Source of the DNA: a virus
Virus record (IMG/VR): IMGVR_UViG_3300013094_000139
Span: 1-36,285 of that record
Length of the DNA: 36,285 nt
Reading direction: 5' to 3' (one strand)
The position numbers and the translations under genes are program-made. The first letter of the stretch is position 1; the number at the start of each line of letters is the position of its first letter. The notes under the pieces were generated by a model. The model made no database searches. It saw only the letters and a list, made by a program, of their open reading frames with translations, and was not told the origin of the DNA. This document shows, piece after piece, positions 7,070 through 35,055 of the stretch.

Positions 7070-7080
7070 TAGGAAAACAC

Positions 7081-7530
7081 ATGTCAACATATATTGGATT
7101 TAGCACACAAAATGTAAACAATGTCATGACCAATGGATATACTCCTGGTTATACCAATACAATAGGTATTAACAAGACACCATCTACAAATGGTGTTAAA
7201 TTTAAAACGACTGATGAAGCATTGGTAATACAAGATTTTATCAATGCAATGAATATTCAACAAGGTACTAAACCAGGCAAACCCGGTTACGGTACAACAT
7301 TATGGACTTTTATATTTGAGCCAAATACAGTAGATACAACCTATGAAATTGAAACAGAAATTCAAAGAATTGCTAGCTTAGATCCTAGATTAATACTAAA
7401 CTCTATAACAGTAAATTCAAAAGATTCAGGTGTTATGGTAACGATAGAATTAGCAGTTAGCCCATTTAATAATCCTACAACATTAGCATTGTTCTTTGAT
7501 CAAGGATCAGGAACTGCATCAGCGGTATAA
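7081..7530 (+). CDS. 25: Baseplate wedge subunit gp25 (GPW/gp25 family)
   Basis: 149 aa, the usual size for this family. The GPW_gp25 core is clear: FKTTDEALVIQDFINAMNIQ, then GYGTTLWTFIFEPNT, then EIETEIQRIASLDPRLILNS and a final strand pair ending VMVTIELAVSP. The family's EPR-type motif is EPN here. In T4 the protein is a structural wedge component that templates the first ring of the contractile sheath; it is not a lysozyme despite old names. AGGA at 7071-7074 sits six bases before the ATG. It is placed between gp5 and gp6, as in T4-like cyanophages. Confidence 0.92.
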   Translation: MSTYIGFSTQNVNNVMTNGYTPGYTNTIGINKTPSTNGVKFKTTDEALVIQDFINAMNIQQGTKPGKPGYGTTLWTFIFEPNTVDTTYEIETEIQRIASLDPRLILNSITVNSKDSGVMVTIELAVSPFNNPTTLALFFDQGSGTASAV

Positions 7531-7548
7531 ATCGTTGGTTTTTTGTAC

Positions 7549-7556
7549 GATAAATA
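7549..7556 (+). promoter_or_regulatory. T4-type late promoter motif GATAAATA before gp6
   Basis: GATAAATA lies in the 43-base gap between gp25 and gp6, 17 bases before the gp6 ATG. T4 late genes use TATAAATA, and T4-like cyanophages are reported to use NATAAATA, recognised by the phage sigma factor gp55. The same octamer recurs at two other gene boundaries in this window. Transcription would begin about six bases after the motif, leaving room for the AAGAGA ribosome site at 7562-7567. Confidence 0.6.
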
Positions 7557-7573
7557 TATAAAAGAGAATACAT

Positions 7574-19900: not shown

Positions 19901-22900
19901 CATATACAGGTGACGGTACAACTAAATCTTATTCAATTTATAGCGGATTATCGTCAAACGACATTCAGGTTACATTGAATGGCATAGTACAAAGAATATC
20001 TAATCCAGCTAAAACTTATATCAATGATGGTAAAACGCTTAAGTATACATTAACTGCAGGGGCAACTCAAAATTCTTTATTTGTCACAGTTAATGGAGTG
20101 CTTCAAGTAGCAGGTAGTCCCAGCTTACCTGGATCTAATTACATTGTTAATACTACATCATTAACTTTTATAAATCGCTTAAATCCGGGTGATGTAGTAT
20201 CAATTACTGAATTGTATACAGGTGCATATCATATTGTTGGATCATTATTAGTATTCAATGTTGCACCAGTCAAAAATGCAATTATACAAATCAATCAATC
20301 GTTACATAAAGATAACTTAGGATATTCTAGTGCAAACGGTAGAGTAACGATTTATGAAAACAAATCTAAAATTAACAATTGGCACATTTACAGAAATCCT
20401 ACTGAAATTGTTGATTTAGATAAGATACAACAAATTAAATTGTATGATAATGTAAATGATGACACATTAGATAGTTTAGATTATTTTGATCCATTGAATG
20501 GTAAATTATTAGGTGCAGTAAGAGAAAATTTAGATTTTATATCAGATAGTGATCCAGCTGGATACAACTCACCTAAATATACAACCGGTAAATTAGTATG
20601 GGGAACTAATCATGTTGGTAAACTTTGGTTCAATACTTCTAATACAAAATTTTTAAATTATCATCAAGATGATTTACATTACAATAGTGTTAACTGGGGT
20701 CGTATATTCCCGGGTAGTACAGTTACTGTATACTCTTGGACTGAGAATTCAGTACTACCAGTTAATTATACTGGTGCAGGTACTGTATTAGATATTGAAA
20801 AATATGTAGTTGGATATTCAGTTGACTCCACAAGCCAATTGGTTACCAAATATTACTATTGGGTCAGAAATACAAATGAAATATACAATGGTAAAACACT
20901 AAGTGATAGTATTCTAGAAAATTATATCACCGACCCACAGAACTCAGGTATTAGTTATTTTGCACCATTGGACGCTAGTACATATGCTTTATACAACAGC
21001 CGAGATTATATACACGGTGTACAAACTAATATGCATATTGGATTTAGTACTGGTGTTAGTGAAGCTCCATTACGCAATGAATTTAAACTAATAAGAAGTA
21101 ATTTTGCAGAAGATTTTCTACCCGGATTTGTTGATCCATCACGTGGCTATACAACCCCAATTGGATTGTACAGTAGAATGTTAGATAGTTTTGCAGGTGA
21201 TGATTTAAGCGGGCAAGTCGTGCCTGATCTTAATTTACCATCATATATGCGCACCGGTGTTAATGTAAGACCAAGACAAAGTTTCTTTGTAGATAGATTC
21301 AATGCATTGAAAAATTATTTAGAGTACTGCAATACAGTACTATTGCAGTACCCAGTAACTGAGGTCAGTAATTTAACTTTCTTAAGTGCACAGGGAACAT
21401 ATTATGATACAACTGCATATTGGTCATATGTTTACTATTGGGATACAGGTTATAGTGATAGTACAAAAACAACAGTTGAAGTAAACATATATGCTGATTT
21501 GTTAAAATTAACACCTAGTGAAGGTATGATTGTCGGTGTTAGGTTCAATGGTCAAGGTAAGCGTGAAGTATATGCTTACACTAGTGGACAATGGAATCGT
21601 GTTGGTCTACAAGACGGCACTATACAAATTAATAGTATGTTATGGGATTATGCTGGTAACCGTATTGGATTTGGTGATAGTTTCTTTGATACATTACCAT
21701 TTGATCAATACCCTAGCACTGAAACACGTTATATCATACGTGCATTGAACGAGCAAATTTTTACAGGACCTCTATTAAAATATAGAAATGAATCATTGAT
21801 ATTGTTATTTGAATACATCCAAAGTGAAAACACATTAGAACATAATTATCTGCCATGGCTAAACAAAACTAGCTTTGTAGATATTGACTATGTGGTTCGC
21901 CCATTAATTCAAGAAACAAAATATCAACTTGATAACTCAACATTATTAAGTGGCTACGTGGATGAAATAAAACCGTATCATACAGTAGTTAAAGATATAT
22001 CATTTAGTTACACAGGCTATGATTCTACTGAGTCTTATATGACTGATTTTGATTTGCCTGCTATATATGATGCTACTAGAAACGTATTCACAACCCCTAA
22101 ATTAGTGTACGATAGCAATGCGACATTAAGTAACGATGATGAATATAGTGCAAGTGCATCTATTTGGACTACCGATGCATATAGTAGCTGGTATCAAAAT
22201 TTTGGATTGACGCTAATTGACATACCAAATCAAACAGTAGCATCAGTTACAAAATATGTAGCCACTGTTGATAATATTTTATACATTGATAATGCTCGTG
22301 GATTGCCAATTCAAGGAGTAATGTATATCAACGGGGAAGCAATTGGTTATAATAATATCAACAGAGAAACCGGATTAGTATCAGGACTAACTAGGGGTCT
22401 TGAGAACACAACAGTAATAACACATTTACCGGGTGAACTAGTAGTAATGAATTTACCTGCAATCATGGTATTAGATGGTGGTCGCAATTATGTTAATCCA
22501 CCAAGTGTTACTGCGTATATAGATACTACGATATATCCAAAACCAACAACACCAGCAGTATTGTCTCCTGTGATGAACGGCGATCAAGTTGCGGCGGTAG
22601 TAGTTGTGGACCCGGGTGCTGGTTATGCAGTCAAACCTGAAATCATCTTCTCAAGTAGCTACGATGTTACATTTGATGAAAATGCAATCAATGCCACAAC
22701 TCATACAATTTTAATACCTAGTACGTTCTTTGTTACTGGTGACTTAATTAAGAGCACCTCTAGCGATCCAACTCATACAAGCATTCTTGATGGATACTAT
22801 TATGTATACATTGTTGCGACTATAAATGAAAACGAACTTGCACAGATTACATTACATAAATCACATGCGGCAAGTTTAAAAGGTGAAAATCAATTGGTAT

Positions 22901-25900
22901 TTGCTGGAATAGAAAATGCAAGTACTACATATACCTTTAGTCTTACTGCACGTGCAATTCCACAAACAACAAACACATTGGTAAGAACAATACAAAATAC
23001 AATGCGTTTTGATAGAACAAGCTATGCACCAAAAGTACAACAATGGGTACCAAGTCAATATTATTCTAGCCCATTCAATAGTTTGGGAACTGAAATAAGT
23101 CAAAGTACATTATTAAGTTACAGTCAACCTTATACAAACCTATCTGGTACAGGAGGAAATGGTACCGGTGCAGTTTTCACTGTATATAATGTGTTCATTG
23201 GTGGAAATTATTCTGTTACAGTAACTAATTCAGGTAATCACTATCATATCAATGATACTATCACTATTACTGGTAGTCACTTGGGTGGAACAGATAGTAT
23301 CAATGATTGTGTGATTACAGTTACTGGATTACTTAACACATATACTAGACTTAATGCTGATGTATACACAGGTACATCTGGTACTGCTGCCTTATTTACA
23401 ATAGTAAGTAATGGTATTAATTATGCAGTAACAGTTGCATCACCTGGTATTAATTATGTATTGGGTGATCAGTTCACATTTGCCGGCGGTAGATTCAATG
23501 GGGTAAGTACAACAAATGATGTGACTATTACTGTTACTGGTATCACAAGTCAGGGTGCTATCACTACAATCAGTTTCTCTGGTACACCTGCAACCAATGG
23601 CTCAATACACACATTATCAGTTTCTGGTACTGCGGTTGATGCATATCTATCAAGTTTAGCTGGCGTAGTTCTACCAATTACTAATTCATATGCAGATGGC
23701 AATGGTAACTCAATTGTTTCATTAGACTATGCTTTAAGTGGATTAAAACCTGGACAAATTCAAGGTAGTAAAGTTTATTTTTATCGTAATTTAAATTCAT
23801 ACATCTATGATGATACTAATTCTAATTTTACCGGTAATATAGTTGGAAGCATATCTGGTACTACTTTAACAGTAACTACTGTTAACAGTGGTAATCTTGG
23901 TATACCTTATCTGTTACACAACGGTGGGGTAGTATCGGGTACATATGTTACTGCGCAATTAACTGCTACTGAAACGCCAGTTGCAACTGCAACTGCGGCT
24001 CAAGCTACTGTTGGCACAAATACATTATTATTGAGTTCGTTTACACTAAATGATATTTCTAGAGTGTTAGTTGGTCAATTTGTTCAGCCAGTAACTGGTA
24101 TACCTGCTAACACATTTGTTACTTTTGTTAATTATGTAACTGGTTCAATCATTATAAGTAACAATACAACTGCTGTAGTTAATAGTTCGTTGAACATATA
24201 CATTGCAGGCGGTACGGGTACCTATACAGTAAACAACAACCAATCATTAGCGTCAACAACAATGGATGTCGGCGGTGGTGCAAAAATAGAAATTCATAGA
24301 CCTAGATTTAATCCAAACTCAGTTAATAATGAATATTTCATTAAAATATTAAATTATGGTACATGCTATAATGATACTACACAAAATAAGATTGTGGTAT
24401 CTGGTGCTTTATTGGGTGGCATAGCCGGAGTCAATGATGCTACAATCACAGTACATACAGGTAGTTTGATTGGAAATAATCCAATCATTAGTGCAACAGT
24501 TGGTGGTATAGCGGTTGGGTTCTATGAAATATATTACTTAAATCCCATCGATGACACACATGTGCAAGTATTCAAAGATTCGGCAAGACGAATCCCCTTA
24601 CCATACAATCAGTATGTGTATACTGATTATAGCAACATTACCAATAGAACTGCTTCAAATTATATAGGATCACTTAATACAGATTATGCATACATACCAG
24701 AACCTATCTATTCAGGTGAGGGTTATGTATATGATGCAACTGCATTGGTTCTTTATAACGGTAGTGCTTATACATGTATTCAAAGTAATAATGATAGTGT
24801 ATTTGATCCCGCTAAATGGACTAAACTACAAGCAGATGACCGTAAATTAAACGCTTTAGATAGAATTGTTATTTACTATCAACCATCTGCAACTATGATA
24901 CCAAAAGATATACAACAACTAGTCAAAGGAACCTCGTACCCCAATGATGTATATTATGGTAACAGCTTTAGCCCAGAAGATTCTTATCCGATAGACATGG
25001 TAGTAAAAGACCAAATATTCTATCCTAGAGATGTAAGTATCAAAGCCATGATTTACGACGGTGAAAATTATGTAGCATTATCAGAATCATCAACACATTC
25101 TAGTGTATTAACAAGTACTGACGGTATCAATTGGAATAACTTTTCAATATCAAATTCAGTATTACAATTAACTAGTTTAAATTATAATACTGATCACCAA
25201 CAGTATGTGGTGACTGATAACACATACCATAATTCTTTATTGTTGAGTCACGATTTAGAAAACTGGTTGGGTGTTGGACAGTCAACTAACTATGGTATGA
25301 CTCCATACGATGATAACAATTTTGATAGTAGTCCAATTGTATGCCCTGATGGTATATTGAACAAAGTGATTTACACACAGGGGTATTATTACGCAGCAGG
25401 CGATAAAATTCTTAAGAGTATCGATGGCGTAATTTGGGAAACTGTTGCATTATTAACTGGTCAATATCCTGCAATCATCAATGACATGGAAAATGTAATT
25501 ACAACATATTTTGATGGATTCATAGCAGTGGGTGAAACAACAGCAAGTGATTCAAATCATCTATCACAAACTGTAAGTTACATTATGGCTAGTATAGATG
25601 GTAACAATTGGATGGTAACTGACAATCAATTTTTAGGAATAGGTAGTGTACACTTGGTCACTTATTCTCCTGACATCATTGTTATTGCCGGTGCTAGTGG
25701 TTCAGTTTTCTATAGTACAAACGGATTTAATTGGTTGATGGGAGATATATCTGGAAATGGTAATACTAACGCCTTGAATAAAGGTGCATATGCTAATGGT
25801 ATATTCATATTAGTAGGAGACAGTGGAGTTATCCTAAGATCAACAAATGGAATAGATTGGCTTGATGTAAGTGGAGCTACGACAAACAATTTATATTCTA

Positions 25901-27711
25901 TAATCAATGATGGTGTTTATTTCTATGCCGCAGGTGATAAAGGTACTATATTACAAAGTATGGATGGAACTACATGGCTAGATACAAGTGTCATTAGACA
26001 ACCAACTAGTGATGTAGATCCAATAGAAAAATTACCATATAGCACAATCAAAGGCAGCGATTTCTTATTTGGATACGGTCCAGAAGAAATGATACCTGGT
26101 CTAATGACAGACTCATTATCTATGACTGTAGTTTCAGCTCCAGGAAGTTACTGGGATGATACCAACGCTATTAGCGGACAATTAATTGTAGAAAACAATG
26201 GTTTCTCAATGATTAGTAAAACAACAACTCCTATAAAAAATAAAGTAAGTTTTGCTAGTATGGCTTTGTACCCTGCACAAATTAGTGTATTTGTAATGGA
26301 TATGATTACTCATACCGGAACTAGAATTTATGAACAGTCTTCAGCAAATAGTCCATTGAGTTATACAGTTGATTGGTATAATAAAGAAATTACATTATCT
26401 GATTCTTTAACAAATGATAATCAAATTACAATTGAAGTATATGAAATTGGTAACGGTAAAGAATACTTTAAGAGCAGTACAGATTATGTTCCGTTGAGAA
26501 CGAATGATCAAGGTAATTCCTACATACAATTAGATATAAAATATAAACCAATTCAAGTAGAACCAGTGATATATGTCAATGGATCAGCTCTAGTATACAA
26601 TCAAGATTATACAATTGATTTCACAACTGGGGTATATGCATATACAATAATAACTTTTGTTACAGAATATGATCAAGAAACAGATTATATTACGTTTACT
26701 TTATTAGACACAAGTTTGAATGATTATAATACTACTGAATATTTGTTTAGTATCCCTGAAACACAGTTGTTCACAGGAAGTTCTACGGACACCTTTAATT
26801 TAACAAACTACATAGGCGGTACTTATTCACAGCCACCCGGTGCTGCCTTAGGTGATAATGCAACCAATGCAATTGTTGAAATCAATGGTATTAGAAGAGA
26901 CCCAACTCCCGGAGTAGAGTATACTATTACAGTTCCTGATCCAGTCAATCGACCTAATGTAGCTACATTGGTGTTTAATAATCCAGTAAGTAGTGATGAT
27001 TTAGTAGCGGTGACCACATACCACGAAGTTCAGCGTTTGTATTTAAAAACTCTTGTATGGACAAGTGCACCTTATACAGTTCAAGATTTATTTTATTACG
27101 GAATAATTGATTTAGTTGAATATAGTGATCCTACTAAAGTTTGGGTAACAATTAATGGTCAACGTGTAGACCCTAGTGTTGTCACATATGACGGTGCAAA
27201 CTTAAACATAGCAACTACTATTAATTCAGGGGATGAAGTGGTAGCTACTATTATGGCAAAAGGGTCAAGTCCAAATGCGTTAAGTTATACGGTCGATATA
27301 GATAAAAATAACAACACCTTAATTTATCGTAACAATATAGAAATTACATCATGGTTAGTAACAGACTTGCTTCCCTCTGATTCTTCAATCTATGTGTATG
27401 ATTTGCAAAATATCATTGATAAGGGTACAACTCAGGGTATTGTTAAAATAAACAATGAAAAAATAAGATATTCAATGGTAGATTTGGTTGCAAATACACT
27501 AAGTGGATTGACTAGAGGAGTTCTAGGAACTAGTGTTGCAGAGGTTCATAGCATGTATGAACAAGTAACTGGATTAACTGCTAATGCTACCCTTGATCCT
27601 AATTACTATAATAAACGCTGGAATACTAATAATATTGATGAAGTCAATGGAGATCCGTTACAACTAAGCACTAGTCCAACGGCTACTTTCTTAAAATACG
27701 GGCATTATTGA
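10939..27711 (+). CDS. Giant mosaic virion structural protein (5590 aa), at the gp7/gp8 position of the baseplate
   Basis: One uninterrupted frame of 16.8 kb. The N-terminus (TIDFLPEIFQTTTNELFLNA, NYQLEPAVVF, LINFGQYYWVPQGPEPV) is a signature I recognise from large structural proteins of marine T4-like myoviruses. A beta-sandwich-like segment follows at about 181-253 and HHHY at 269-272. Later parts: carbohydrate-binding-like segment about 1787-1825; AHNL/DGYYTINSI domain about 2055-2131; FG-GAP propeller about 2194-3144; conserved DEIKPYHTVVKD at 3675; GLTRG module at 3816; three tandem beta repeats about 4068-4528; seven Asp-box repeats 4725-5015; VNG-type beta repeats and a second GLTRG at 5523. 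Position right after gp6 suggests it replaces gp7/gp8, forming the outer baseplate and fibre attachment. AGG at 10928-10930 supports the start. The role is inferred and no enzyme active site was recognised. Confidence 0.85.
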   Translation: MATKIRTIDFLPEIFQTTTNELFLNATLDQLVQQPDFKKVQGFIGSKFGYGISSTDKYLTEPTVTRTNYQLEPAVVFKKKDTSIAVDMITYPGLVSAIELESGIKTNHNNLFSNEFYAWDSFADLDKLINFGQYYWVPQGPEPVTISNVQALTEATFAVNSLANEYTFVINDASTTQGNPTIELVRGGTYRFNLNQTTPFYIQTQPGLSGVDATKTNVSTREIYGVENNGSQTQSVIFNVPLTSDQQYIFSPGDIFADLLTTKSFNDIHHHYLNEIVSIDGVNQLEGKTLLFYGTDAAEVSNFTNTNVNKYLYKIRYLGNSSNPLIELDPYEILSDNTQITIQSGVDYISRVFIKDSYGNIQLIPQITSTLDTLYYQDGVNPSKFGKIKLIDNPLSSTINVNDDVLGQTSYTSPNGITFTNGLKVQFTGSIFPVEFLNDTYYVEGVGTGIILIPVSQQIVPEPFGDTISEAFDETYYDMDTYESSLQLSHTADYITINRASLDRNAWTRSNAWFHVDVLKITIENNTISPIASAALASNNARAKRPIIEFYPNLKLINSGVKGRTAIDYVDLSTNNAMSIVSGATAYYPDGVTSQLFNGARIVFANDNNVEVRNKIFVANISKINGVETITLSVASDGNIKYLDQVFVTRGEKYKGTSYYFDGAFWIQAQQKTTVNQAPLFDIFDSNGISFSDTSYYAGSDFIGCTLFQYAIGTGPVDTILNFPIAYGNVGNLSDITFEITLNNQIFNYVINNVSTPQSVNTGYVYSLDNNGNTIRKIGWVTAAEKSFQYQVFNYVYNSNVMPAGPIFITDIAAKSSTSTIWPTIVVYVDNTRVDTSSYTVSIGATTTTIILLNSIAEDTHVDVMIYSDQISEMGYFQVPSNLDHNPFNTPITNLNLGDIRGHYKSICNNIALSGSAFGANNYRDMGIVIPYGTKIIQNSSSIASAAAFLRKQSTNFFNSIIYNSTEYVKFKALLANTVNTQNFTPYDTPDSMLDSALDIITSVKSSDNAFYWSDMLPSKTPKYVNNYQFKVGIANSVFPTNILHDFKNANYNGLLIYVVRNVAGLPTQTIQLYKDIDYVVPDGQLYVEILLTLQNNDVIIIKEYDQTYGSYIPNTPTKVGFYPLFVPEVILDDTYTIPTYFLKGHDGSYTKLYGEYNNGYLEDFRDKVLYEFEMRIYNNMKVDAKLPLSLDDIKPGQFRTTDYSYNDFMTIYSTSFLNWIGLNRVNYTNQFFDSNNDFTWNYNSTLNNLDNTKFKQGNWKGIYLWLYDTVSPHTTPWEMLGLVNKPVWWETRYGPAPYTSDNTLLWTDLSNGYVYNDGSPYINSKRVRPNLVSIIPVDNQGNLLSPFGQYTNGQLISTYNNATFNAPWAVGDVGPAEYSYLKSSAWPFDLMRIYALTKPAQFFTLGLDLDVYKYSTEFQQYLVYDRLRTAPNQLEIYGGGAGGPVSAYSNYAQHSYFNWVVDYLNQYGLNGSSIITDLSNSLDVRLVYRLAGFSDKNQLEFYIEKGSPNSKNNVLLIPDDSYNIVLYKNEPDDVIIYSSIIIQKISTGYKIFGNSQNKAYFLAFDPLFNNNYTPITVGGTSVNVPNDYASNVTVIPYGYEFSSIQLLANFIASYGRYLTSQGMQFTDTENGIEINWNQMIAEMLYWYNTGWEVGSTINLNPNANIITIDNSQSVIQPLTDYNENYILNQNLIQVPINNLEIYRKDTLFSAKALTQGDSLSYFRSIVSSVEHAVIFDNTTVFNDIIFNLVTGLRQQRLYLKGTKTNNWNGTLNAPGFIINQDNVTDWQPNVRYVKGDIVVYKRQYWMANIPVVVPNITFNSNEWLLTQYQNIHKGLVPNPSTRSYESDLYYNTYKSNLESDGGLLSYSLIGYRPRPYLADANLDDTSQVNLFKTMIKGKGTGDTLKALQSIELQGHEFTYDIYENWAIKSVEYGGVLNSNFIEFTLNGNALTGNPSIIAITNGNGVSYAQQEVPLSNIVNYARSLISSDILPIMTTAPMTQLASAGYVHMDDVALMAYTVQRLDPLSVYFLYGDDYVWIANKTNDWGVYSVLSLNNSITSIKNNFNNTVTVTFESAHNLTTSDVIGISYYSTVVDGYYTINSIASATSIIINISLPNGTTSIPAVGSSFVIKLQLQRIGSPLDINSLPLAYEYANEYVWMDKGSNNNWLVYEKSQNYSKTNFISSIENDVNVSYGSQVIYIPEVGFYISDAGRGIMYKYIQSDAGFVKMSEYTPDGGATAPYGQVIARSDEFVAVSSPNPSISQIFIYRIVNTPEIDALVLEQVLNYTFGVPVGTAMAFSGDSEFFFVNFPGLNLTSAGGGQGAILIYKRSPDFTYFNPYPTMALSNTTLPNEKFFTLRGDRRSSSALVPGQRISFFHYTQFGASALAEVGYDPQTGYTLQQAETATQINGEAPYKQKYRRYYIKASGNIPVGTIFAIDPSIDNVDYTVTSTNSLYDAPSNTTKIYLDNILAPIWTNLFSVLDTYSIQYFDLSIVPGVNQIYTYTNMLPVNTYVTVITTEYTPDPGFPGDATRGVTKVHTVERIGYSIPGQDTYIRAVQNIFTGGNYISTPLSTNAADVFGYSIAVNYDATKLFVGAPYKNFLSPFIANVGTVYAFSRLEQKYEIDFTPPAGNVFELYLDFIPGVGTSLWLNGSKLDTSRYAFGSINDSVYVKISGLVAGDIISIKSPNFVVDQQLTSYESPDGVIPGQQFGKSISCNSTGTEVIVGCPHDLTMPGQEGAVYRFTHEGKKYGTITALIGVNGTGQMTESYILLNGYSVQIPVGDAYTAANAINNAAVPNVIAYVFDTPSGDNLLRIRLLNKSIGEENNKLDINVFNGNEFFFLGIAPYIKTQVIREPHAQEGSYFGEHVLFNEKGSFAVTAPHATSYASTSFDNLASDIHNNTVFDNNLTTFEDKFPEAGAVYIFDYIPTYDESLLNAGQFVYAQSCNDDISDYGATPLYGASIAFNNDTLMVGSPKFKADIAVSTSTYTGDGTTKSYSIYSGLSSNDIQVTLNGIVQRISNPAKTYINDGKTLKYTLTAGATQNSLFVTVNGVLQVAGSPSLPGSNYIVNTTSLTFINRLNPGDVVSITELYTGAYHIVGSLLVFNVAPVKNAIIQINQSLHKDNLGYSSANGRVTIYENKSKINNWHIYRNPTEIVDLDKIQQIKLYDNVNDDTLDSLDYFDPLNGKLLGAVRENLDFISDSDPAGYNSPKYTTGKLVWGTNHVGKLWFNTSNTKFLNYHQDDLHYNSVNWGRIFPGSTVTVYSWTENSVLPVNYTGAGTVLDIEKYVVGYSVDSTSQLVTKYYYWVRNTNEIYNGKTLSDSILENYITDPQNSGISYFAPLDASTYALYNSRDYIHGVQTNMHIGFSTGVSEAPLRNEFKLIRSNFAEDFLPGFVDPSRGYTTPIGLYSRMLDSFAGDDLSGQVVPDLNLPSYMRTGVNVRPRQSFFVDRFNALKNYLEYCNTVLLQYPVTEVSNLTFLSAQGTYYDTTAYWSYVYYWDTGYSDSTKTTVEVNIYADLLKLTPSEGMIVGVRFNGQGKREVYAYTSGQWNRVGLQDGTIQINSMLWDYAGNRIGFGDSFFDTLPFDQYPSTETRYIIRALNEQIFTGPLLKYRNESLILLFEYIQSENTLEHNYLPWLNKTSFVDIDYVVRPLIQETKYQLDNSTLLSGYVDEIKPYHTVVKDISFSYTGYDSTESYMTDFDLPAIYDATRNVFTTPKLVYDSNATLSNDDEYSASASIWTTDAYSSWYQNFGLTLIDIPNQTVASVTKYVATVDNILYIDNARGLPIQGVMYINGEAIGYNNINRETGLVSGLTRGLENTTVITHLPGELVVMNLPAIMVLDGGRNYVNPPSVTAYIDTTIYPKPTTPAVLSPVMNGDQVAAVVVVDPGAGYAVKPEIIFSSSYDVTFDENAINATTHTILIPSTFFVTGDLIKSTSSDPTHTSILDGYYYVYIVATINENELAQITLHKSHAASLKGENQLVFAGIENASTTYTFSLTARAIPQTTNTLVRTIQNTMRFDRTSYAPKVQQWVPSQYYSSPFNSLGTEISQSTLLSYSQPYTNLSGTGGNGTGAVFTVYNVFIGGNYSVTVTNSGNHYHINDTITITGSHLGGTDSINDCVITVTGLLNTYTRLNADVYTGTSGTAALFTIVSNGINYAVTVASPGINYVLGDQFTFAGGRFNGVSTTNDVTITVTGITSQGAITTISFSGTPATNGSIHTLSVSGTAVDAYLSSLAGVVLPITNSYADGNGNSIVSLDYALSGLKPGQIQGSKVYFYRNLNSYIYDDTNSNFTGNIVGSISGTTLTVTTVNSGNLGIPYLLHNGGVVSGTYVTAQLTATETPVATATAAQATVGTNTLLLSSFTLNDISRVLVGQFVQPVTGIPANTFVTFVNYVTGSIIISNNTTAVVNSSLNIYIAGGTGTYTVNNNQSLASTTMDVGGGAKIEIHRPRFNPNSVNNEYFIKILNYGTCYNDTTQNKIVVSGALLGGIAGVNDATITVHTGSLIGNNPIISATVGGIAVGFYEIYYLNPIDDTHVQVFKDSARRIPLPYNQYVYTDYSNITNRTASNYIGSLNTDYAYIPEPIYSGEGYVYDATALVLYNGSAYTCIQSNNDSVFDPAKWTKLQADDRKLNALDRIVIYYQPSATMIPKDIQQLVKGTSYPNDVYYGNSFSPEDSYPIDMVVKDQIFYPRDVSIKAMIYDGENYVALSESSTHSSVLTSTDGINWNNFSISNSVLQLTSLNYNTDHQQYVVTDNTYHNSLLLSHDLENWLGVGQSTNYGMTPYDDNNFDSSPIVCPDGILNKVIYTQGYYYAAGDKILKSIDGVIWETVALLTGQYPAIINDMENVITTYFDGFIAVGETTASDSNHLSQTVSYIMASIDGNNWMVTDNQFLGIGSVHLVTYSPDIIVIAGASGSVFYSTNGFNWLMGDISGNGNTNALNKGAYANGIFILVGDSGVILRSTNGIDWLDVSGATTNNLYSIINDGVYFYAAGDKGTILQSMDGTTWLDTSVIRQPTSDVDPIEKLPYSTIKGSDFLFGYGPEEMIPGLMTDSLSMTVVSAPGSYWDDTNAISGQLIVENNGFSMISKTTTPIKNKVSFASMALYPAQISVFVMDMITHTGTRIYEQSSANSPLSYTVDWYNKEITLSDSLTNDNQITIEVYEIGNGKEYFKSSTDYVPLRTNDQGNSYIQLDIKYKPIQVEPVIYVNGSALVYNQDYTIDFTTGVYAYTIITFVTEYDQETDYITFTLLDTSLNDYNTTEYLFSIPETQLFTGSSTDTFNLTNYIGGTYSQPPGAALGDNATNAIVEINGIRRDPTPGVEYTITVPDPVNRPNVATLVFNNPVSSDDLVAVTTYHEVQRLYLKTLVWTSAPYTVQDLFYYGIIDLVEYSDPTKVWVTINGQRVDPSVVTYDGANLNIATTINSGDEVVATIMAKGSSPNALSYTVDIDKNNNTLIYRNNIEITSWLVTDLLPSDSSIYVYDLQNIIDKGTTQGIVKINNEKIRYSMVDLVANTLSGLTRGVLGTSVAEVHSMYEQVTGLTANATLDPNYYNKRWNTNNIDEVNGDPLQLSTSPTATFLKYGHY
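16294..16413 (+). other. Carbohydrate-binding-like module in the giant protein (first)
   Basis: Residues about 1786-1825 contain DWQPNVRYVKGDIVVYKRQY, then a short insert and NEWLL. The order W, x-x-Y-x-x-GD-x-V-x-Y, aromatic pair, final W resembles the small CBM5/12-type chitin/cellulose-binding fold found at the tips of many phage proteins. Similarity is by eye only. Confidence 0.45.
17518..20370 (+). repeat. Seven FG-GAP-like beta-propeller blades with inserted domains
   Basis: Residues about 2194-3144 contain seven units of the type aromatic-G-x-x-(I/V/M)-x(6-10)-(V/F)-x-x-x-x-P, closed by a G-x-(V/I)-x-(I/V)-(Y/F) strand: YGSQVIYIPEVGFYISDAG, YGQVIARSDEFVAVSSPN, VGTAMAFSGDSEFFFVNFPG, FGYSIAVNYDATKLFVGAPY, FGKSISCNSTGTEVIVGCPH, FGEHVLFNEKGSFAVTAPHA and YGASIAFNNDTLMVGSPKF. 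The closing strand of the last blade (NGRVTIYENK) comes only after roughly 140 inserted residues. Other inserts sit between blades 3-4 (about 245 aa), 4-5 (about 90 aa) and 5-6 (about 105 aa). Integrin-alpha-type FG-GAP propellers are binding platforms. Confidence 0.6.
23140..24520 (+). repeat. Three related beta modules (IxGxxLGG...ND type) in the giant protein
   Basis: Three units share an extended Y-x-V-x-V strand, a G-x-x-Y turn, a G-D/N-x-(I/F) step and a GG...ND-x-(T/V)-I-(T/V)-V end. Unit 1 is at about 23149-23330 (YSVTVTNSGNHYHINDTITI), unit 2 at about 23365-23560 (YAVTVASPGINYVLGDQFTF) and unit 3 at about 24265-24520 (YFIKILNYGTCYNDTTQNKI, then GALLGGIAGVNDATITV). Units 1 and 2 are adjacent; unit 3 is separated by the nested domain at 23827-24263. 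DNA identity is low, so these are old duplications. Confidence 0.55.
24690..24840 (+). other. Carbohydrate-binding-like module in the giant protein (second)
   Basis: Residues about 4585-4634 read as Y-x-x-x-A-L-V-L-Y-N-G-S-A-Y-T-C-I followed by FDPAKWTKLQ. The pattern V-x-Y-x-G-x-x-Y-x-C/A plus a closing W is shared with CBM5/12-like phage modules and with the first such segment of this protein. Similarity is by eye. Confidence 0.4.
25042..25990 (+). repeat. Seven Asp-box (BNR-like) repeats forming a second beta-propeller
   Basis: Residues about 4702-5018 contain seven copies of S-x-(D/N)-x-x-x-W at residues 4725 (TSTDGINW), 4769 (LSHDLENW), 4826 (KSIDGVIW), 4884 (ASIDGNNW), 4925 (YSTNGFNW), 4967 (RSTNGIDW) and 5006 (QSMDGTTW). 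Spacing is about 40 residues in the last four and 44-58 in the first three. Each is preceded by a Y-x-A/V-x-G or equivalent strand. This is the Asp-box pattern of sialidase-like and Ycf48-like propellers, and seven blades is a normal closed ring. No sialidase catalytic Arg triad was recognised, so a binding or structural role is more likely. Confidence 0.7.
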
Positions 27712-27722: not shown

Positions 27723-27875
27723 ATGACTATGAACGAAATCCCAGAAAAAAAAGATGAGGAAATATCCAAAGAAAAGCCCACAGATGAAAATGGCGGGTTT
27801 CTCTTTAGTTCAGCAATAAAGATTTACGACCCTAACACAGAAGAAGTGTTAGTACAAATACGAGGCGACAATTAA
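27723..27875 (+). CDS. Small acidic protein with IKIYDPNTEEV motif, related to the N-terminus of the next gene
   Basis: A 50-codon frame running from ATG to TAA, overlapping the next ATG as TAATG. Residues 1-23 are charged (Glu/Lys-rich). Residues 26-50 read FLFSSAIKIYDPNTEEVLVQ plus five more residues. The segment from IKIYDPN matches LKVYDPNSKEVF at residues 14-25 of the next protein: K, Y, D, P, N, E and V are identical in register with conservative changes between. I recall similar tiny ORFs beside the same structural gene in marine myoviruses, but cannot name a function. Ribosome-site support is weak (GAAAG at 27710-27714). An internal ATG at 27729 would shorten it by two residues. It fills the gap exactly and is coupled to its neighbour, so it is probably real. 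Confidence 0.7.
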   Translation: MTMNEIPEKKDEEISKEKPTDENGGFLFSSAIKIYDPNTEEVLVQIRGDN

Positions 27876-28495
27876 TGAGTAAACTAAATATCCCCCTGTC
27901 AATCGAGGGCTTTTTGAAAGTCTATGATCCAAACAGTAAAGAAGTTTTTTATGATGGGCACAATGCTATTCACTATGAGAATATCAGCATAGCCATTGCA
28001 AATGCACTTAGTAATCGCGGTCAAGGGACTATTTTTCAAATGGCTTTTGGTAACGGTGGCAGTAGTGTAGACCAAACCGGTATTATTACATATTTACCAA
28101 CCAATACAACTGGTCAAAATGCTAGTTTGTATAATCAAACATATACAAAAATTGTTGATGACACAAATATCTTAAATGATAATCCAGTAAGAAATAAAAT
28201 GACAGTAACACATACCAGTGGTAAAGTTTATACTGATATTGTTGTCAATTGTTTATTGGATTACGGTGAGCCTGCAGGGCAACAAGCCTTTGATAACGGG
28301 ACATTATTGCAAAGTGATTATGTCTTTGATGAGTTGGGTTTATTAGGTACATATGGGTTAGATAGCAACGGAAATGAATTAACTACATTACTAACACATG
28401 TGATTTTTCATCCAGTGCAAAAGAGTTTAAACAGACAAATTCAAATTGATTATACAGTTCGCATACAAAGCTTGACGAACTTGATCACAATTTAA
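27875..28495 (+). CDS. Conserved virion structural protein of T4-like marine phages (206 aa)
   Basis: The sequence carries motifs I recognise from a widespread uncharacterised structural protein of cyanophage- and pelagiphage-type myoviruses: LKVYDPNSKEVFYDGHNAIH, then QMAFGNGGSSVDQTGIITYL, NCLLDYGEPAGQQAFDN, YVFDELGL, and near the end LLTHVIFHPVQKSLNRQIQI. The length is typical and all blocks are in order, so it appears intact. It sits between the giant baseplate protein and the fibre genes, which suggests a baseplate periphery or fibre-connector role. That is inference from position. The start overlaps the upstream stop and has GAGG at 27862-27865. Confidence 0.8.
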   Translation: MSKLNIPLSIEGFLKVYDPNSKEVFYDGHNAIHYENISIAIANALSNRGQGTIFQMAFGNGGSSVDQTGIITYLPTNTTGQNASLYNQTYTKIVDDTNILNDNPVRNKMTVTHTSGKVYTDIVVNCLLDYGEPAGQQAFDNGTLLQSDYVFDELGLLGTYGLDSNGNELTTLLTHVIFHPVQKSLNRQIQIDYTVRIQSLTNLITI

Positions 28496-28527: not shown

Positions 28528-29772
28528 ATGGCTGCATATACAATCGTTAGAAGTAATGGTCAAACATTGACTACTATTCAAGATGGAACAATCAATACGA
28601 CTAGTTCCTCACTAAGTTTATTTGGGCGTAACAGCTCAGGGTATGGTCAAGGATTAGATACAAATCTAATTAGAATGTTGGAAAACTTTAGTAATCCTAC
28701 TCCACCTTCTAATCCAATTCTTGGACAACTTTGGTTCAACACAACACTTAATACACTTAACATTTGCCCAAGAGACGGGGAAAGTAATGCTCTTGCCTGG
28801 ATAACATTAACTAGTACAAATTCAGGCGGCAGTGCAACATTGGGTAATGTTACTGTAACTGGTAACATCACGACCAACAATTTAACAGTAACTAATTCAA
28901 CTAGTACAGATACACTTACTGCTAGATTAGAAACAATCTCAGGAACAGCAACCATAAATGCTGCAATAATTACATCTGGTACAATAGGTGCGTTGACAAC
29001 TACTAATGTTTCAACTGGTGGAACAACAACCGGCGGTATATTAACTGGTGCTTGGACATTATATGGTAACGCAACTGGTGAAGCAACCAATATTGGTTAC
29101 GGTGGTGGTTATGCATTGTATATTAAATCAGGTGATATTGCGTTTGATGCTAGTAGTCTTAATGGCATTAGATGTGATCGTTATATGAATAGTGACGGTA
29201 GTTTATTTAACCCAGCCGGTAGCTATACTAATGCCAATGTATATAATTATCTAACTGGTACAGGTGTAACTCAGTTTACAGGAAATATTGCACCAACTAA
29301 AGTTACTACAAGTCATTTGGCAGGCGGCGGTGATATTAGTGGTACTTGGACATTAACATCAGGCTCAACAATTCAAGCAACATACGCTGACTTGGCAGAA
29401 AGATTTGAAGCAGATACGTTGTATGATGAAGGTACTGTAGTTGAATTAGGTGGTGATAAAGAAATCACTGCCGTAGTAGAAGAACTAAGCGACAGAGTAT
29501 TTGGTGTAGTTAGTAAGAAAGCTGCATACATTATGAATAGCAAAGAAGGCTATACTGATGAAACTCATCCACCGGTTGCACTTAGCGGTCGTGTCCCAGT
29601 TAAAGTCATTGGACAAGTTCGTAAAGGTGATTGGTTAGTTAGTGCAGGAAAAGGCAAGGCTAGATCAGCCGGTTCTAATGAGAAGAATGCATTCAATACT
29701 ATTGGTCGTGCATTATCAAGCAAAGATACGTCAGGTGAGGGTATAGTTACTGCGTTCGTGTCAGTTAAATAA
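28528..29772 (+). CDS. Tail fibre protein with conserved N-terminal anchor and ADLAE-type C-terminal domain
   Basis: 414 aa. The N-terminus (residues 1-95) has the conserved attachment region seen in many T4-like phage fibres: LTTIQDGTINTTSSSLSLFG, GYGQGLDTNLIRMLENF, then PSNPILGQLWFNTT. The middle (about 100-190) is a repetitive Thr/Ser/Gly beta region (TLGNVTVTGNITTNNLTV) typical of a trimeric fibre shaft. The C-terminus (about 288-414) contains TYADLAERFEADTLYDEGTV, RVFGVVSKKAAYIMN, PPVALSGRVPVKVIGQVRKG and DWLVSAGKGKARSA. This resembles the fibre-end domain related to Peptidase_G2-like intramolecular chaperones; whether it cleaves itself cannot be seen here. Start support: late promoter and GGAG. 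Confidence 0.85.
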   Translation: MAAYTIVRSNGQTLTTIQDGTINTTSSSLSLFGRNSSGYGQGLDTNLIRMLENFSNPTPPSNPILGQLWFNTTLNTLNICPRDGESNALAWITLTSTNSGGSATLGNVTVTGNITTNNLTVTNSTSTDTLTARLETISGTATINAAIITSGTIGALTTTNVSTGGTTTGGILTGAWTLYGNATGEATNIGYGGGYALYIKSGDIAFDASSLNGIRCDRYMNSDGSLFNPAGSYTNANVYNYLTGTGVTQFTGNIAPTKVTTSHLAGGGDISGTWTLTSGSTIQATYADLAERFEADTLYDEGTVVELGGDKEITAVVEELSDRVFGVVSKKAAYIMNSKEGYTDETHPPVALSGRVPVKVIGQVRKGDWLVSAGKGKARSAGSNEKNAFNTIGRALSSKDTSGEGIVTAFVSVK

Positions 29773-29781
29773 GGATTTATA

Positions 29782-32700
29782 ATGACCTATCAGTCAAAGT
29801 CATTAGTACAAGCGATTGACTATAATACATTAGTTGGAGCTACAGGTACAGGTACCATATCAGCAACACCAACACCAACTTCTGGAATTGCATACGGTAC
29901 AGACCCGTTACAAACTGTTGATATTTTATCACCGTCTACTTTTAACTTTGCTACAGGCATAGGAGATGCACCCAAAGGTGTTATACTATGGTTACACGGT
30001 GGAACTCAATTTAGTAATCCATGTGATGAGTGGGGCGCAGGTGACAAAACCTTAGAAGCTTCAAACATTTCTAACGTGAACACGCTGGTACAAGCAGGAT
30101 ACTTGGTCATCAATGCAAATTATAGATTGGTTCTACCTAATACACTAGATAGTTCACCTAGTGGAGTGTTCCCTAATAATACATTAGATGTATTAACAAT
30201 AATGAGTTTCTTATTGGTTGATGGACAAGGTCAATCAAAAGCTCCGACTACCAATGATCAAAATGCTTGGGTAAATGCTAGAAACTATGTTAAAAAACAT
30301 GGATTAATGGTTGCAGGTGCAGGTGCAGGTGGGCACTTAGCAATGTTAGGTACATTTGAATTTGCATATGCTAGCAATGGTATATGGCCAAATGCAGTAA
30401 TGAACTTTATGGGACCAATGAATTTGGTATATGATTCAGTTACAAACCCATTGGGAACAGATGCACAGGGTGCAATGAATGTACTTACTGGTTCTAGTTC
30501 AACAGTATTACATAATGCTAGTCCGTACTATAGACGTTCTACATGGGCAAGTGGAATACCTAATTATTTAAACGCTCCTTGCAAATTTTATTTCTGGTAT
30601 AATACAAATGATACATTATTCCCTTCTACTAGTATATTAGGATTTGCTAATGCTTTAGCAACTGATATTCCTAGCAAAGTGTTTATCAATAGTGTTACTG
30701 TAGGTACTGAAACAGCAGGTACAGGTGGTTACCCAACACAATATCTATCAGATCATAATGTATCAGACAATACATTAATACCTAGTGCATTGATAAGTTC
30801 TGCAAAATTATCATTGCCGTTAGCACCCACGTCAACGGTAACTGCAAATACAGTTAATGCAGTATGGGGAACAGGTAACGGTAGCTTAGGGTATGGTCAA
30901 CCATCATTATCTTTAATTGATATCAATCAAGAAATACTTGCACAAGATTGGATTAATCTAATTAATGTTATTAATTATTGTGCAACTGCACAAGGTACTA
31001 CTATATCACCTGCAATTACTTTACCTGTTGCTAACTCATATGCAAGTAAAGTTACTGCGGATCAAAATATTATTTCTGGCTTGTCTTCAATATATACTAA
31101 AAGATTGAATACCTCAAGTCAAGGAACATCTAGTTCTGCAAGTACTGCAACACTTAATAACTCTTGGAATAGTGTAGCAACATTTCAACATGACATAACA
31201 TTCAGTTCAGGTGATCAAGCAAGGTATTTTTTCAATATGGGCGGTCAAATTGCACTGACACTTGCAACACCTAATGGTGCCGGCACAATCAATGGTGATT
31301 TGTACAATCTAGCAAATGCATGCGGTACACTATACTTAAGTAGTGGCACGTGTACTATTAACAATACTGCATTCAATGGTTTTACTAAAGTAGGTGGATC
31401 AGGAACACCATCTAAAATAGTACCAACTGCTGGATACTATGGATTAACCTCAACATATCAAGAAATTTTTAATCAACAAGTAGGAGGAAATGGTCCTACT
31501 GCATCATCTTATGTTAGTATTAGTGCAAAAACAAATGGCACTCAAGATATTAACGGTGATAACGGTACAGTCATTAGCCTACAGATTACTTGGGCAGAAA
31601 TTCCAGCTGGTACTGGTACCGTTACTTCTGGTACATCAACATCAGTTGTAGTTACTCAACCATACTTATTCTCAAACTTTGTACAATCATGGGGCTTACC
31701 AGTTGTAACTTCAACCGCATTAGGTGGGACAACAATAACAGTTGCACAGCCTGCGTTGACGCCTGTTAGCATCAATCCTAATCCAGTGACTGTGGGCGGA
31801 TCTACTACGATTAGCAGTATTGTGTCAAACGCAATTGGTAAAACATGGACAATGACAGTTATAGGTCCGGCTGGTACTAATTTGTCATATAACGGTTCTG
31901 TAACAACGAATCCGCAAACAATCACTCAAAATGTTACAACATCAGTGGTTGATTCAGCAACAGTAACGATTACTTTAAATTCAGGACAAAGTGTTACGGG
32001 TACATTGGTTGTGAACAAAGTTCCAGCCAAAGTATACAACGAAGTAGTATCTTTGCCTACTCCAGTAATAATCAATACTGATTTAGTTATTGGAATTAGC
32101 GGTGGTGCGCCTAGCGACACATGTGTTATTACTGGGTTAGACTATGCCATGAATGCACCTGGCACAAGTATTACAGTAAATTTAGATGTTAATGGTAATG
32201 GTAGTACAACTGTTCCTAGTTATGGTGGACCAACATCACCGTATTCTATTGTAGCTAAACATTTGGGTGCAACATTTAATGTAACATTTACATTTACTAA
32301 CACTACCCATGTAGTTACTAAACCGCTTACAGTTAACGCGGCGGCGGTCCCCCCGTCCCCAACATACCTATTAGCTGCTACTGAAACAACTATTTTACCT
32401 GGACAAAATGTAGAGTTTGTTTTAACAACAACTAATGTACCTGATGGTACATCTTTTCCCTTTACTATTGCATTTTCAACTGGAGTTGGAATTTCTGATT
32501 TTTCCCCAACAATGAGTTTGAATGGGAGTATGGTTGCTGCATCACCAACTGGTAATTTTATAGTTGGTAAAGCTGGCGTATCAGGTGAAGCAAAATTAAT
32601 ATTTGCTACAAGTGCGACTAGTCAAGTTTTTGCTAGTGGTCCAGTTGGAGTAACTGTCACTATAAATGCAAATGCAACACAACCAAAACTAACTGCAAAT

Positions 32701-35055
32701 GCTACTATAGGATCGATATTTAGTAGTGGTCCTAGTGCAACAGTAACAGTTGAAAATGAAAGTATAACTCAATATTTACTTAGTGGTCTTGCAAAACAAT
32801 ATGTACCACAACTAAATGATCCAAATTATGCACCAGGTTGGAACCCCGGTGACCCTGTGTTATTTAAAATATCTCCCGGTTGGGCACTAAATGATTGGCA
32901 CATTGATCTATCAAACTTCTTAGGTGGAACAGATGCAACATTAAGCGTTATATATACTGATGCAATAACAGGAGATATAACACAAAAAGCATTACCTTCT
33001 GCTATTTTTTCAGCCGCAAAAGCGAAAATAGATATTCCGGCAAACAGTCCAATATACACAGATGTGTTGGGAATATCAAATACAAATAGATTTATTTTTT
33101 GCATGGTAGTGATTAACGGTGCAAATAATCCTAATGTACAGAATAATGAAGTATATCCCTATTACTATTATTTTAAAATATCAACCGGGTCACCTACAAA
33201 TACAACTGGTCACTTTGGTGTTAGTGCTGATCCTGAGTTGGCATATTATCCTTGGTATATTAATGGTCCTTATGCAGATGTAGAATATCCATTGGCATTA
33301 TCAGGTATAACCAGTACACCATGGCCCCAGGCTGCATTGAATGTATTAACAGCAGGTGCTACAATTGATTTTGGTTTGTCAGAAATAGTTGCAAATCAAG
33401 CACTACCTAATTTATATATGTATGCAATGGGTGGTAAATATAGTGCAGGCTATACTTGGTCGACTACAGGTATTACATCACCCGGTATTGTTATAACACC
33501 TGGTAGTGCTGGTTATAGACAAAAAATATTAAATATTTCTGGAACGCCTACGGTCGCTGGTGATTTCCAAGGAACAGTAACGGTTACTAGTAATGGAAAA
33601 TCTACAACTGCCAATGTTAAAATACATGTAAAACCAAATGAATCAGCGATAGCTAAAGGAACCGTGATATCAGTAGGTGATAGTGGAACACATATTCTTC
33701 TTGCGTATGGATATCCAGGTGATACTGTAACTGTGTCTGCAACATTTATCGACTCTACCAATAGAAGTTCTCCTATAACACCATCAACTTCTACAATAAC
33801 TCTTGACAATAATGGTTCTTATCTTTACCCTGTGGCAGGATATGGCTCAATTGGTATATTGAACTATCAATTTTCATTCAGCAAATCGGGTACGGTATTA
33901 AGTGTTGGTAACGGTAAAGTAACTGCTATTACAGTACAAGCTGGTTCAGTACCTCCCTCACCAAAATACATATTTAGTATATCACCTGCAAACACAACAC
34001 TATCGGCAGGTCAACAATTTACAATAACTGCTACGGCTATAAATGTTACATATCCAAATACAATCTATTATACACTTTCTGGTGTAAATTCAACTGATGT
34101 ATTGTGGAGTTCTGGTTCATTGTCCGGAACTAATTTAGCATTAAATGGTCCAACTATTTTTCCTGACTCTACACCCATACCAATTAATTTTAACATGGCA
34201 TCTACCTCAGATAGTACAACAAAGACTGCCGTAATCAACTGGTATAGTAGTCCATCACAACAAGACTCATCTACATTATTGGGTAGTATTAACTGGAATA
34301 CTAGTTGGTCTTTAGGCACAACTACTACAACTACACCAAACACAGTTAATTCAGGCACCTCTGTGCCGTCAGTCCCGCCTCTAGCTGATCCACAAGGACA
34401 ATGGAATGTAGTCGATAGCAATAATACACCTTACCCGAATGGTAGCACAATACCACAAAATACACAAATTTATTTCCAATATCTTGGTCCTGCATTTGTT
34501 GATTATACTAGTACTTTCAATGGTAGCCCAGGACCTGGTGGAACTAGCGGTGGTAGAGTTAGACTAGTAAACATTATAGGACCGGTAACATTATCGACCC
34601 CGGGCCCGGTTACATGTACTATCACATATAGTGGATACATTCCACAAACATATAATGCTACTGTAACTGCTGCAGTTTCTGTACCACCAGGAGTAACATT
34701 ACCTAACTATTTTGCGATATCACCTAATTATTTGGTTAAAGGTAATACTGCTACTGCAACAATACAAGGAACACATGATGTTGCGGTAACTGCACACGCA
34801 TCATTTCAGACAGCTGGTCAAGACCCACCTGGAACATCAGTTGGAACAATAAACTTAGGAACTATAGGTACAAATGGTCAATTGTCTTGGACTTCACCGC
34901 AATTGAATTCAGTTGGTACTTGGTATTTCAGCGTTTACTTCGGTGGAACAATTTATACTGTGGATGACGGTAATGGCAATCAGGTACCAGCACAATATGT
35001 TGTGCAGGTATTTAATTCGCAAGCTGATTTGATTGCCGCTACATCATACGGTTAA
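29782..35055 (+). CDS. Large tail fibre/adhesin with an inserted esterase-like (alpha/beta-hydrolase) domain and Ig-like repeats
   Basis: 1757 aa. Residues 1-21 (MTYQSKSLVQAIDYNTLVGA) match the usual anchor of T4-like marine fibre proteins. The usual continuation (NAVWGTGNGSLGYGQ, QDWINLINVINYCA) appears only at residue 359. Between them lies an alpha/beta-hydrolase fold: GVILWLHGGTQF (HGG 72-74), AGYLVINANYRL, GAGAGGHLA (179-187), NTNDTLFP (Asp277) and SDHN (His325). From about 459 to 640 comes the common fibre domain (WNSVATFQHDITFSSGDQAR, FNMGGQIALTL). From about 660 to the end are Ig-like beta domains separated by VPP linkers. Expected role: receptor-binding side fibre. AAGGA at 29771-29775 lies six bases before the ATG, inside the intergenic gap. 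The anchor and fold calls are strong; the biological role of the insert is inferred. Confidence 0.8.
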   Translation: MTYQSKSLVQAIDYNTLVGATGTGTISATPTPTSGIAYGTDPLQTVDILSPSTFNFATGIGDAPKGVILWLHGGTQFSNPCDEWGAGDKTLEASNISNVNTLVQAGYLVINANYRLVLPNTLDSSPSGVFPNNTLDVLTIMSFLLVDGQGQSKAPTTNDQNAWVNARNYVKKHGLMVAGAGAGGHLAMLGTFEFAYASNGIWPNAVMNFMGPMNLVYDSVTNPLGTDAQGAMNVLTGSSSTVLHNASPYYRRSTWASGIPNYLNAPCKFYFWYNTNDTLFPSTSILGFANALATDIPSKVFINSVTVGTETAGTGGYPTQYLSDHNVSDNTLIPSALISSAKLSLPLAPTSTVTANTVNAVWGTGNGSLGYGQPSLSLIDINQEILAQDWINLINVINYCATAQGTTISPAITLPVANSYASKVTADQNIISGLSSIYTKRLNTSSQGTSSSASTATLNNSWNSVATFQHDITFSSGDQARYFFNMGGQIALTLATPNGAGTINGDLYNLANACGTLYLSSGTCTINNTAFNGFTKVGGSGTPSKIVPTAGYYGLTSTYQEIFNQQVGGNGPTASSYVSISAKTNGTQDINGDNGTVISLQITWAEIPAGTGTVTSGTSTSVVVTQPYLFSNFVQSWGLPVVTSTALGGTTITVAQPALTPVSINPNPVTVGGSTTISSIVSNAIGKTWTMTVIGPAGTNLSYNGSVTTNPQTITQNVTTSVVDSATVTITLNSGQSVTGTLVVNKVPAKVYNEVVSLPTPVIINTDLVIGISGGAPSDTCVITGLDYAMNAPGTSITVNLDVNGNGSTTVPSYGGPTSPYSIVAKHLGATFNVTFTFTNTTHVVTKPLTVNAAAVPPSPTYLLAATETTILPGQNVEFVLTTTNVPDGTSFPFTIAFSTGVGISDFSPTMSLNGSMVAASPTGNFIVGKAGVSGEAKLIFATSATSQVFASGPVGVTVTINANATQPKLTANATIGSIFSSGPSATVTVENESITQYLLSGLAKQYVPQLNDPNYAPGWNPGDPVLFKISPGWALNDWHIDLSNFLGGTDATLSVIYTDAITGDITQKALPSAIFSAAKAKIDIPANSPIYTDVLGISNTNRFIFCMVVINGANNPNVQNNEVYPYYYYFKISTGSPTNTTGHFGVSADPELAYYPWYINGPYADVEYPLALSGITSTPWPQAALNVLTAGATIDFGLSEIVANQALPNLYMYAMGGKYSAGYTWSTTGITSPGIVITPGSAGYRQKILNISGTPTVAGDFQGTVTVTSNGKSTTANVKIHVKPNESAIAKGTVISVGDSGTHILLAYGYPGDTVTVSATFIDSTNRSSPITPSTSTITLDNNGSYLYPVAGYGSIGILNYQFSFSKSGTVLSVGNGKVTAITVQAGSVPPSPKYIFSISPANTTLSAGQQFTITATAINVTYPNTIYYTLSGVNSTDVLWSSGSLSGTNLALNGPTIFPDSTPIPINFNMASTSDSTTKTAVINWYSSPSQQDSSTLLGSINWNTSWSLGTTTTTTPNTVNSGTSVPSVPPLADPQGQWNVVDSNNTPYPNGSTIPQNTQIYFQYLGPAFVDYTSTFNGSPGPGGTSGGRVRLVNIIGPVTLSTPGPVTCTITYSGYIPQTYNATVTAAVSVPPGVTLPNYFAISPNYLVKGNTATATIQGTHDVAVTAHASFQTAGQDPPGTSVGTINLGTIGTNGQLSWTSPQLNSVGTWYFSVYFGGTIYTVDDGNGNQVPAQYVVQVFNSQADLIAATSYG
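29845..30855 (+). other. Inserted alpha/beta-hydrolase domain lacking the catalytic serine
   Basis: Residues 22-358 of the fibre. In order: HGG oxyanion motif at 72-74, NYRL at 113-116, a Leu-rich helix, the nucleophile elbow at 179-184, the D-T-L-F-P strand-end at Asp277, and His325. The fold resembles esterases of the BD-FAE/HSL type, where the elbow is G-D-S-A-G-G-H-L-A. Here it reads G-A-G-A-G-G-H-L-A, so the serine position is Gly181 and the preceding Asp is Ala180. Confidence 0.7.
30313..30330 (+). repeat. Perfect GCAGGT x3 tandem repeat at the nucleophile elbow
   Basis: Three head-to-tail copies of GCAGGT encode Ala-Gly-Ala-Gly-Ala-Gly (residues 178-183). They cover exactly the position where the catalytic serine of an active esterase would be. 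Confidence 0.9.
32338..34690 (+). repeat. Ig-like modules joined by VPP linkers in the fibre
   Basis: Three inter-domain linkers share V-P-P: VPPSPTY at residue 856, VPPSPKY at 1390 and VPPGVTLPNY at 1634, each followed by a beta-rich unit beginning with a G-x-(N/Q/T) turn (LPGQNVEFVLTTTN, LSAGQQFTITATAIN, VKGNTATATIQGT). The first two units align best. A fourth proline-rich joint, VPSVPP, lies at about 34361. Confidence 0.55.

Follow-up and report, generated by a model that had tools for sequence, protein, structure and literature searches.

A short fibre-like virion protein encoded in the window (the whole stretch of viral DNA that was analysed, 36,285 nt, IMG/VR record IMGVR_UViG_3300013094_000139) almost certainly carries an inserted esterase-type domain with an alpha/beta-hydrolase fold, and the position of its nucleophilic serine is occupied by glycine. 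The explanation that we prefer, and to which as a whole we give a probability of about one half, is that an esterase was captured, lost its serine, and has been kept as a non-catalytic virion module that holds a ligand.

Genomic context of the fibre-like gene

The gene is a 1757-aa ORF at positions 29782–35055, with an open and clean frame; it is on the plus strand, as are all of the features described within it and the two genes upstream. It is located after baseplate-type genes, and the gene order is a giant structural gene, a 206-aa gene (27875–28495), a 414-aa virion gene (28528–29772), the fibre-like gene, and a Gly-rich gene. The 206-aa product corresponds to phrog_11259, of unknown function; it has 598 relatives in IMG/VR, and the nearest named phages are the jumbo phages Sinorhizobium phage Phosso and Agrobacterium phage Atu_ph07. 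The 414-aa protein has PHROG matches to virion structural and tail-fibre families and is 62% identical to its counterpart in a related locus, L001 (IMGVR_UViG_3300025789_000035). The gene order is the sole basis for our calling the 1757-aa protein a putative tail fibre. We note that window positions 10939–27711 form one virion-type ORF of 5590 aa (16.8 kb); what appear to be its counterparts in Atu_ph07 and Phosso are shorter, at about 13.4–13.7 kb. We also note a sister contig, L018, that is 99.75% identical to the window across 11.9 kb and whose end falls at window position 29792, some ten bases inside the fibre-like gene, a hint that strains vary in this gene or that it assembles poorly.

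The ORF begins with a segment (residues 1–21; 29782–29844) that is homologous to the N-termini of related proteins and is presumed to be the virion anchor. This is followed by the inserted domain (residues 22–355; 29845–30846), the normal continuation, or fibre body (residues 356–648; 30847–31725), which is 37–44% identical to proteins of ~317 aa in the majority of the related loci, and a C-terminal extension of 1109 aa (residues 649–1757; 31726–35052), which is 26% identical to L001 (E 3e-23). Searches of PHROG, Pfam and PDB with the fibre body gave no family or confident match that would name it, and a Pfam search with the extension gave no family match.

A domain inserted into a short fibre-like protein

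Using the 206-aa neighbour gene we gathered 80 related IMG/VR loci, 74 of which have an uninterrupted homologue of the body just downstream of that gene; none of these 74 contains the insert. The uninterrupted homologues are typically ~317 aa, and the spacing from their start to the body is ~26 residues (18–31; lower in a small number of divergent copies) as compared to 355 in the window. Residues 1–21 of the window protein (MTYQSKSLVQAIDYNTLVGAT) match the first ~26 residues of these homologues (e.g. MSYAQFGLIQATDFNTLVGG) and are near-identical in L001, and residues 356 onward (NTVNAVWGTGNGSLGYGQ...) match their body. The insertion point is in a variable linker (...DYNTLVG / LNAVWATG...GYGQ). 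The original prediction had described an esterase-like domain interrupting a fibre between an anchor at residues 1–21 and a continuation from residue 359; the interruption and the anchor stand, and the continuation moves to residue 356, such that the domain spans residues 22–355. That residues 22–355 are simply the normal fibre body is ruled out by their absence from 74 of the 80 related loci. In four related phages (L022, L026, L063 and L071) the ~317-aa fibre-like gene is present as two or three tandem paralogues.

The assignment of residues 22–355 to the alpha/beta hydrolases derives from Pfam, AlphaFold2, and Foldseek searches of the PDB, as well as from homologues. When residues 1–385 are searched alone, the Pfam family BD-FAE (PF20434) is matched with 29.3 bits (E 7.6e-7), above the cut-off of 26.8, and with the entire 1757-aa ORF the score is 24.8 bits, slightly under it; two relatives, L001 and L098 (= L017), score 61.9 bits. 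An AlphaFold2 model of the window domain, built from a seven-sequence alignment, has a mean pLDDT of 74 with the core above 90 and a pTM of 0.79, and its order of strands and helices is that of an alpha/beta hydrolase rather than an unrelated fold. The top Foldseek matches are exclusively esterases, lipases and their relatives (E 1e-9 to 1e-10), and BD-FAE itself is at rank 2 (6XYC) and rank 5 (6TKX). Searching the PDB by sequence with the window domain gave no match; the family profile does find esterases. The best reading of the domain type is an esterase of the BD-FAE/hormone-sensitive-lipase kind.

An active site without its nucleophile

We aligned the window domain with 14 relatives, gathered using the window domain, half-domain and family alignments, and the distant L008/L009 branch; the relatives include near-duplicates (L009/L110, L114/L117), and about a dozen are distinct. 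The HGG motif at the start of the oxyanion loop (residues 72–74; 29995–30003), the triad acid Asp277 (30610–30612) and the triad histidine His325 (30754–30756) are common to all fifteen sequences; the original prediction had recorded them as in place in the window protein. It had also proposed that a nucleophile serine was lost from an active ancestor and that relatives would show whether it is normally kept. The nucleophile elbow, G-x-S-A-G-G in all 14 relatives, reads GAGAGG in the window (residues 179–184; 30316–30333), and the serine present in every relative is replaced by Gly181 (GGT; 30322–30324). The codons are GTT GCA GGT GCA GGT GCA GGT GGG CAC (V-A-G-A-G181-A-G-G-H), and the residue that had been expected as aspartate next to the missing serine is Ala180. 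Another nucleophile on the elbow is ruled out, with no serine, cysteine or aspartate present there. The loss is lineage-specific, since 14 of 14 relatives keep the serine, including L001, in which the domain is at the same site; we found no strain variants of the serine-to-glycine change, and Gly181 is in one sequence among the relatives collected.

A second departure lies in the oxyanion loop, where eight residues (QFSNPCDE, residues 76–83; 30007–30030) are inserted directly behind HGG-T in the window copy and in none of the 14 relatives. This loop is poorly modelled, with low confidence at model residues 55–75 (residues 75–95 of the protein). The change from HGG to HGGT was considered as a sign of decay and dropped; Thr75 is not diagnostic because L003 carries a serine at that position. 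The window has private changes at 11 of 94 otherwise invariant columns, and if all columns were equal the serine would be hit by chance alone about 12% of the time. In a wider set, the serine column is one of only three at which the window differs from all seven remaining members and these agree with one another. Loss of the serine would not be remarkable by itself, without the second active-site change and the deep conservation of the serine. As judged from the alignment, the two separate active-site changes (Ser181Gly and the loop insertion) arose on the window's own branch.

A mobile module in other phage proteins

The serine-intact relatives are found in several kinds of protein, and the comparison shows that the esterase domain is a mobile module that has been placed in quite different virion-associated proteins. 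In L001 the domain occupies the same fibre site in a 2245-aa protein, and in L098/L017 a gene of its own, encoding 680 aa, begins with it. We note that in L098 this gene (5788–7830) encodes the esterase domain and then an unidentified C-terminal part, and that it adjoins a Gly/Pro-rich collagen-like gene (4509–5786). In L014 (3322–6555) and L016 (3307–6555) the domain is near the C-terminus of a P22-gp10-like DNA-stabilisation/head-closure protein, for which cultured relatives match both ends but not the domain. A further example is in L008 (3394–7830), where Pfam places it between a subtilase (S8) domain and Ig-like domains, giving two enzymes in one chain; relatives L110–L117 have proteins of ~1470 aa with the domain placed similarly.

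The domain in L003 (1605–2600; IMGVR_UViG_3300032241_001160), part of a 567-aa fibre-like ORF, is apparently circularly permuted. Within a single frame, the C-terminal half (ASPYYQ...Asp...His) comes first and is followed by the N-terminal half (HGGSW...GSSAGG). All catalytic residues are kept, and the new ends are between beta6 and beta7, the usual place of cap insertions in alpha/beta hydrolases. The permuted-chain model has a pTM of 0.71 and a mean pLDDT of only 60, Foldseek aligns it piecewise to esterases, and the permutation is seen on one 5.3-kb contig. Part of a review of alpha/beta-hydrolase classification (PMC11878206) describes permuted peripheral strands, and a half-for-half permutation like that of L003 is absent from that part.

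Evolution of the domain

Tajima relative-rate tests with six outgroups show that the window domain has evolved no faster than the serine-bearing L001 domain (chi2 at most 1.8), and with this lack of acceleration we reject the idea that a dead gene is decaying throughout. All 334 residues of the domain are read in an unbroken frame. Its GC3 is 0.207, as compared to 0.164–0.286 in the flanking parts, and composition gives no signal of a recent horizontal origin. The window and L001 share the insertion site and the anchor. In the domain tree L001 is closer to L003/L014, with a two-tree AU test giving p = 0.017 against pairing the window with L001; in a wider domain tree the support at the placement of the window and L001 is weak. 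It is possible from these trees that the window and L001 reflect a later capture or a domain replacement at the same site as opposed to one shared insertion. Scans of genome contigs found no cellular donors, although the scans depend on conserved peptides and their negative outcome is weak evidence of absence. Among phage records the window ORF had no match for the domain, and the L001 domain had one weak match at 24% identity.

Relationship to known systems

BD-FAE, a bifunctional feruloyl/acetyl-xylan esterase (PF20434; 6TKX/6XYC), is the best Pfam family for the window domain and among its best Foldseek matches, and the two share the order HGG, nucleophile elbow, Asp and His. BD-FAE has the triad Ser128-Asp237-His269, which lies in a furrow that is shallow and open to the solvent (PMC8165983). 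The window domain departs from it in lacking the equivalent of Ser128, in having eight additional oxyanion-loop residues, and in being embedded in a phage virion-type protein. Phage tailspikes with esterase or deacetylase activity, e.g. Acinetobacter phage Aristophanes gp41 (PMC11126041) and the G7C esterase tailspike, likewise have an esterase-type domain on a virion adhesion protein, where it removes acyl groups from surface glycans. The tailspike esterases in PMC11126041 are SGNH/GDSL-like or sialate-acetylesterase-like and are taken as active, whereas the window domain is an alpha/beta hydrolase, is close to the N-terminus, and is without its serine. Neuroligins, glutactin and neurotactin are alpha/beta hydrolases without a working triad, with a proposed role in adhesion (PMC5943944), and the window domain similarly combines triad loss with a retained fold. 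The neuroligin type differs in that it acts in animal cell adhesion and binds protein partners through its outer surfaces, and there is no close sequence kinship; the likeness is an analogy only. The closest parallel is the L001 fibre, with the same domain at the same site in the same kind of protein; L001 and the other IMG/VR relatives all have the serine, and none has the eight-residue insertion. Our literature searches, of partial coverage, found no dead or pseudo-enzyme form in a phage fibre, and for alpha/beta-hydrolase fibres found only a depolymerase annotation tool. Phage esterase tailspikes are thus already known, and a dead alpha/beta-hydrolase domain in a fibre, which is what the window sequence appears to encode, was not found in the literature searched.

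Possible roles of a serine-less domain

The elbow sequence makes it very likely that the window domain carries out no serine-type hydrolysis. We consider it improbable that it is still an enzyme in which the part of the serine is played by Ser78, Cys81, Asp82 or Glu83 of the inserted loop or by a His-activated water. Asp277 and His325 are retained, and the unique loop puts Ser, Cys, Asp and Glu near the oxyanion region in the sequence, but the elbow GAGAGG has no nucleophile and the inserted loop has low model confidence; we know of no BD-FAE-type family member that works in either of these ways. Still less probable is that codon 181 was misread in sequencing, misassembled, or taken from a minority variant. 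GGT and AGT differ by one base, the codon is within a (GCAGGT)x3 repeat, and the end of the sister contig at the start of the gene suggests that the gene may be hard to assemble; such an error would not account for the 24 bases inserted separately, and in frame, in the oxyanion loop, and the frame is otherwise clean.

Some retained non-catalytic function is probable, and the intact fold, the presence of Asp, His and HGG, and the normal evolutionary rate argue for continued use of this kind. The original prediction offered as an alternative that this copy is disabled and an active one exists elsewhere. The latter part is borne out by L001; a recently disabled copy, with the serine lost and a functionless domain tolerated by the fibre, is rather unlikely. 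The change from AGT to GGT is a single base, Gly181 is in only one sequence, and the persistence of HGG and of Asp277 and His325, the latter two useful mainly for catalysis, also fits a recent loss. Yet a second, separate active-site change, the eight-residue loop insertion, has accumulated, the scaffold has evolved no faster than its serine-bearing homologue, and the 334-residue frame is intact. It is unlikely that the domain is a structural spacer that lengthens or stiffens the fibre base without cutting or binding. Its position directly after the presumed anchor, a variable linker that tolerates insertion, and the 1109-aa extension borne by the same protein are consistent with such a role; the catalytic set is complete in every other carrier, which argues that the module spread as an enzyme, and a spacer would have no need of pocket residues.

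The preferred explanation, a captured esterase kept for holding a ligand, runs as follows. A jumbo phage took up an esterase domain, a movable module, into one of its virion proteins, a short fibre-like one; in the window lineage the nucleophile changed from Ser to Gly181 and the oxyanion loop gained eight residues. As the original prediction proposed, the domain thus derives from serine-bearing ancestors. The acyl-enzyme route is closed, with the fold and the remaining pocket kept, and most likely the domain is now non-catalytic on the virion, where its old pocket would hold a surface ligand, such as a glycan with acyl groups, that the serine-bearing versions in related phages would de-esterify. 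The former substrate may have been acyl groups on a surface polysaccharide, and by analogy the simplest non-catalytic use of the pocket would be to bind a surface glycan that is acylated. Ligand binding specifically is a tentative suggestion, if quite a plausible one. The proposal that the domain is a receptor- or glycan-binding module derived from a killed captured esterase, of which a related phage has the live version at this site of its fibre, is possible and no stronger than that; the domain is near the presumed anchored end and therefore has a weaker claim as the main receptor-binding module, for which the extension or the downstream Gly-rich protein would be more natural tips.

Which surface glycans are open to a phage depends on the enzymes that its fibres carry. 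Here the forms with and without the serine occur naturally at one and the same site, so that two purified wild-type domains would suffice to test the idea. If it is true, a cutting module has been turned into a holding module, and the two forms would be a natural pair in which to watch an enzyme become an adhesin.
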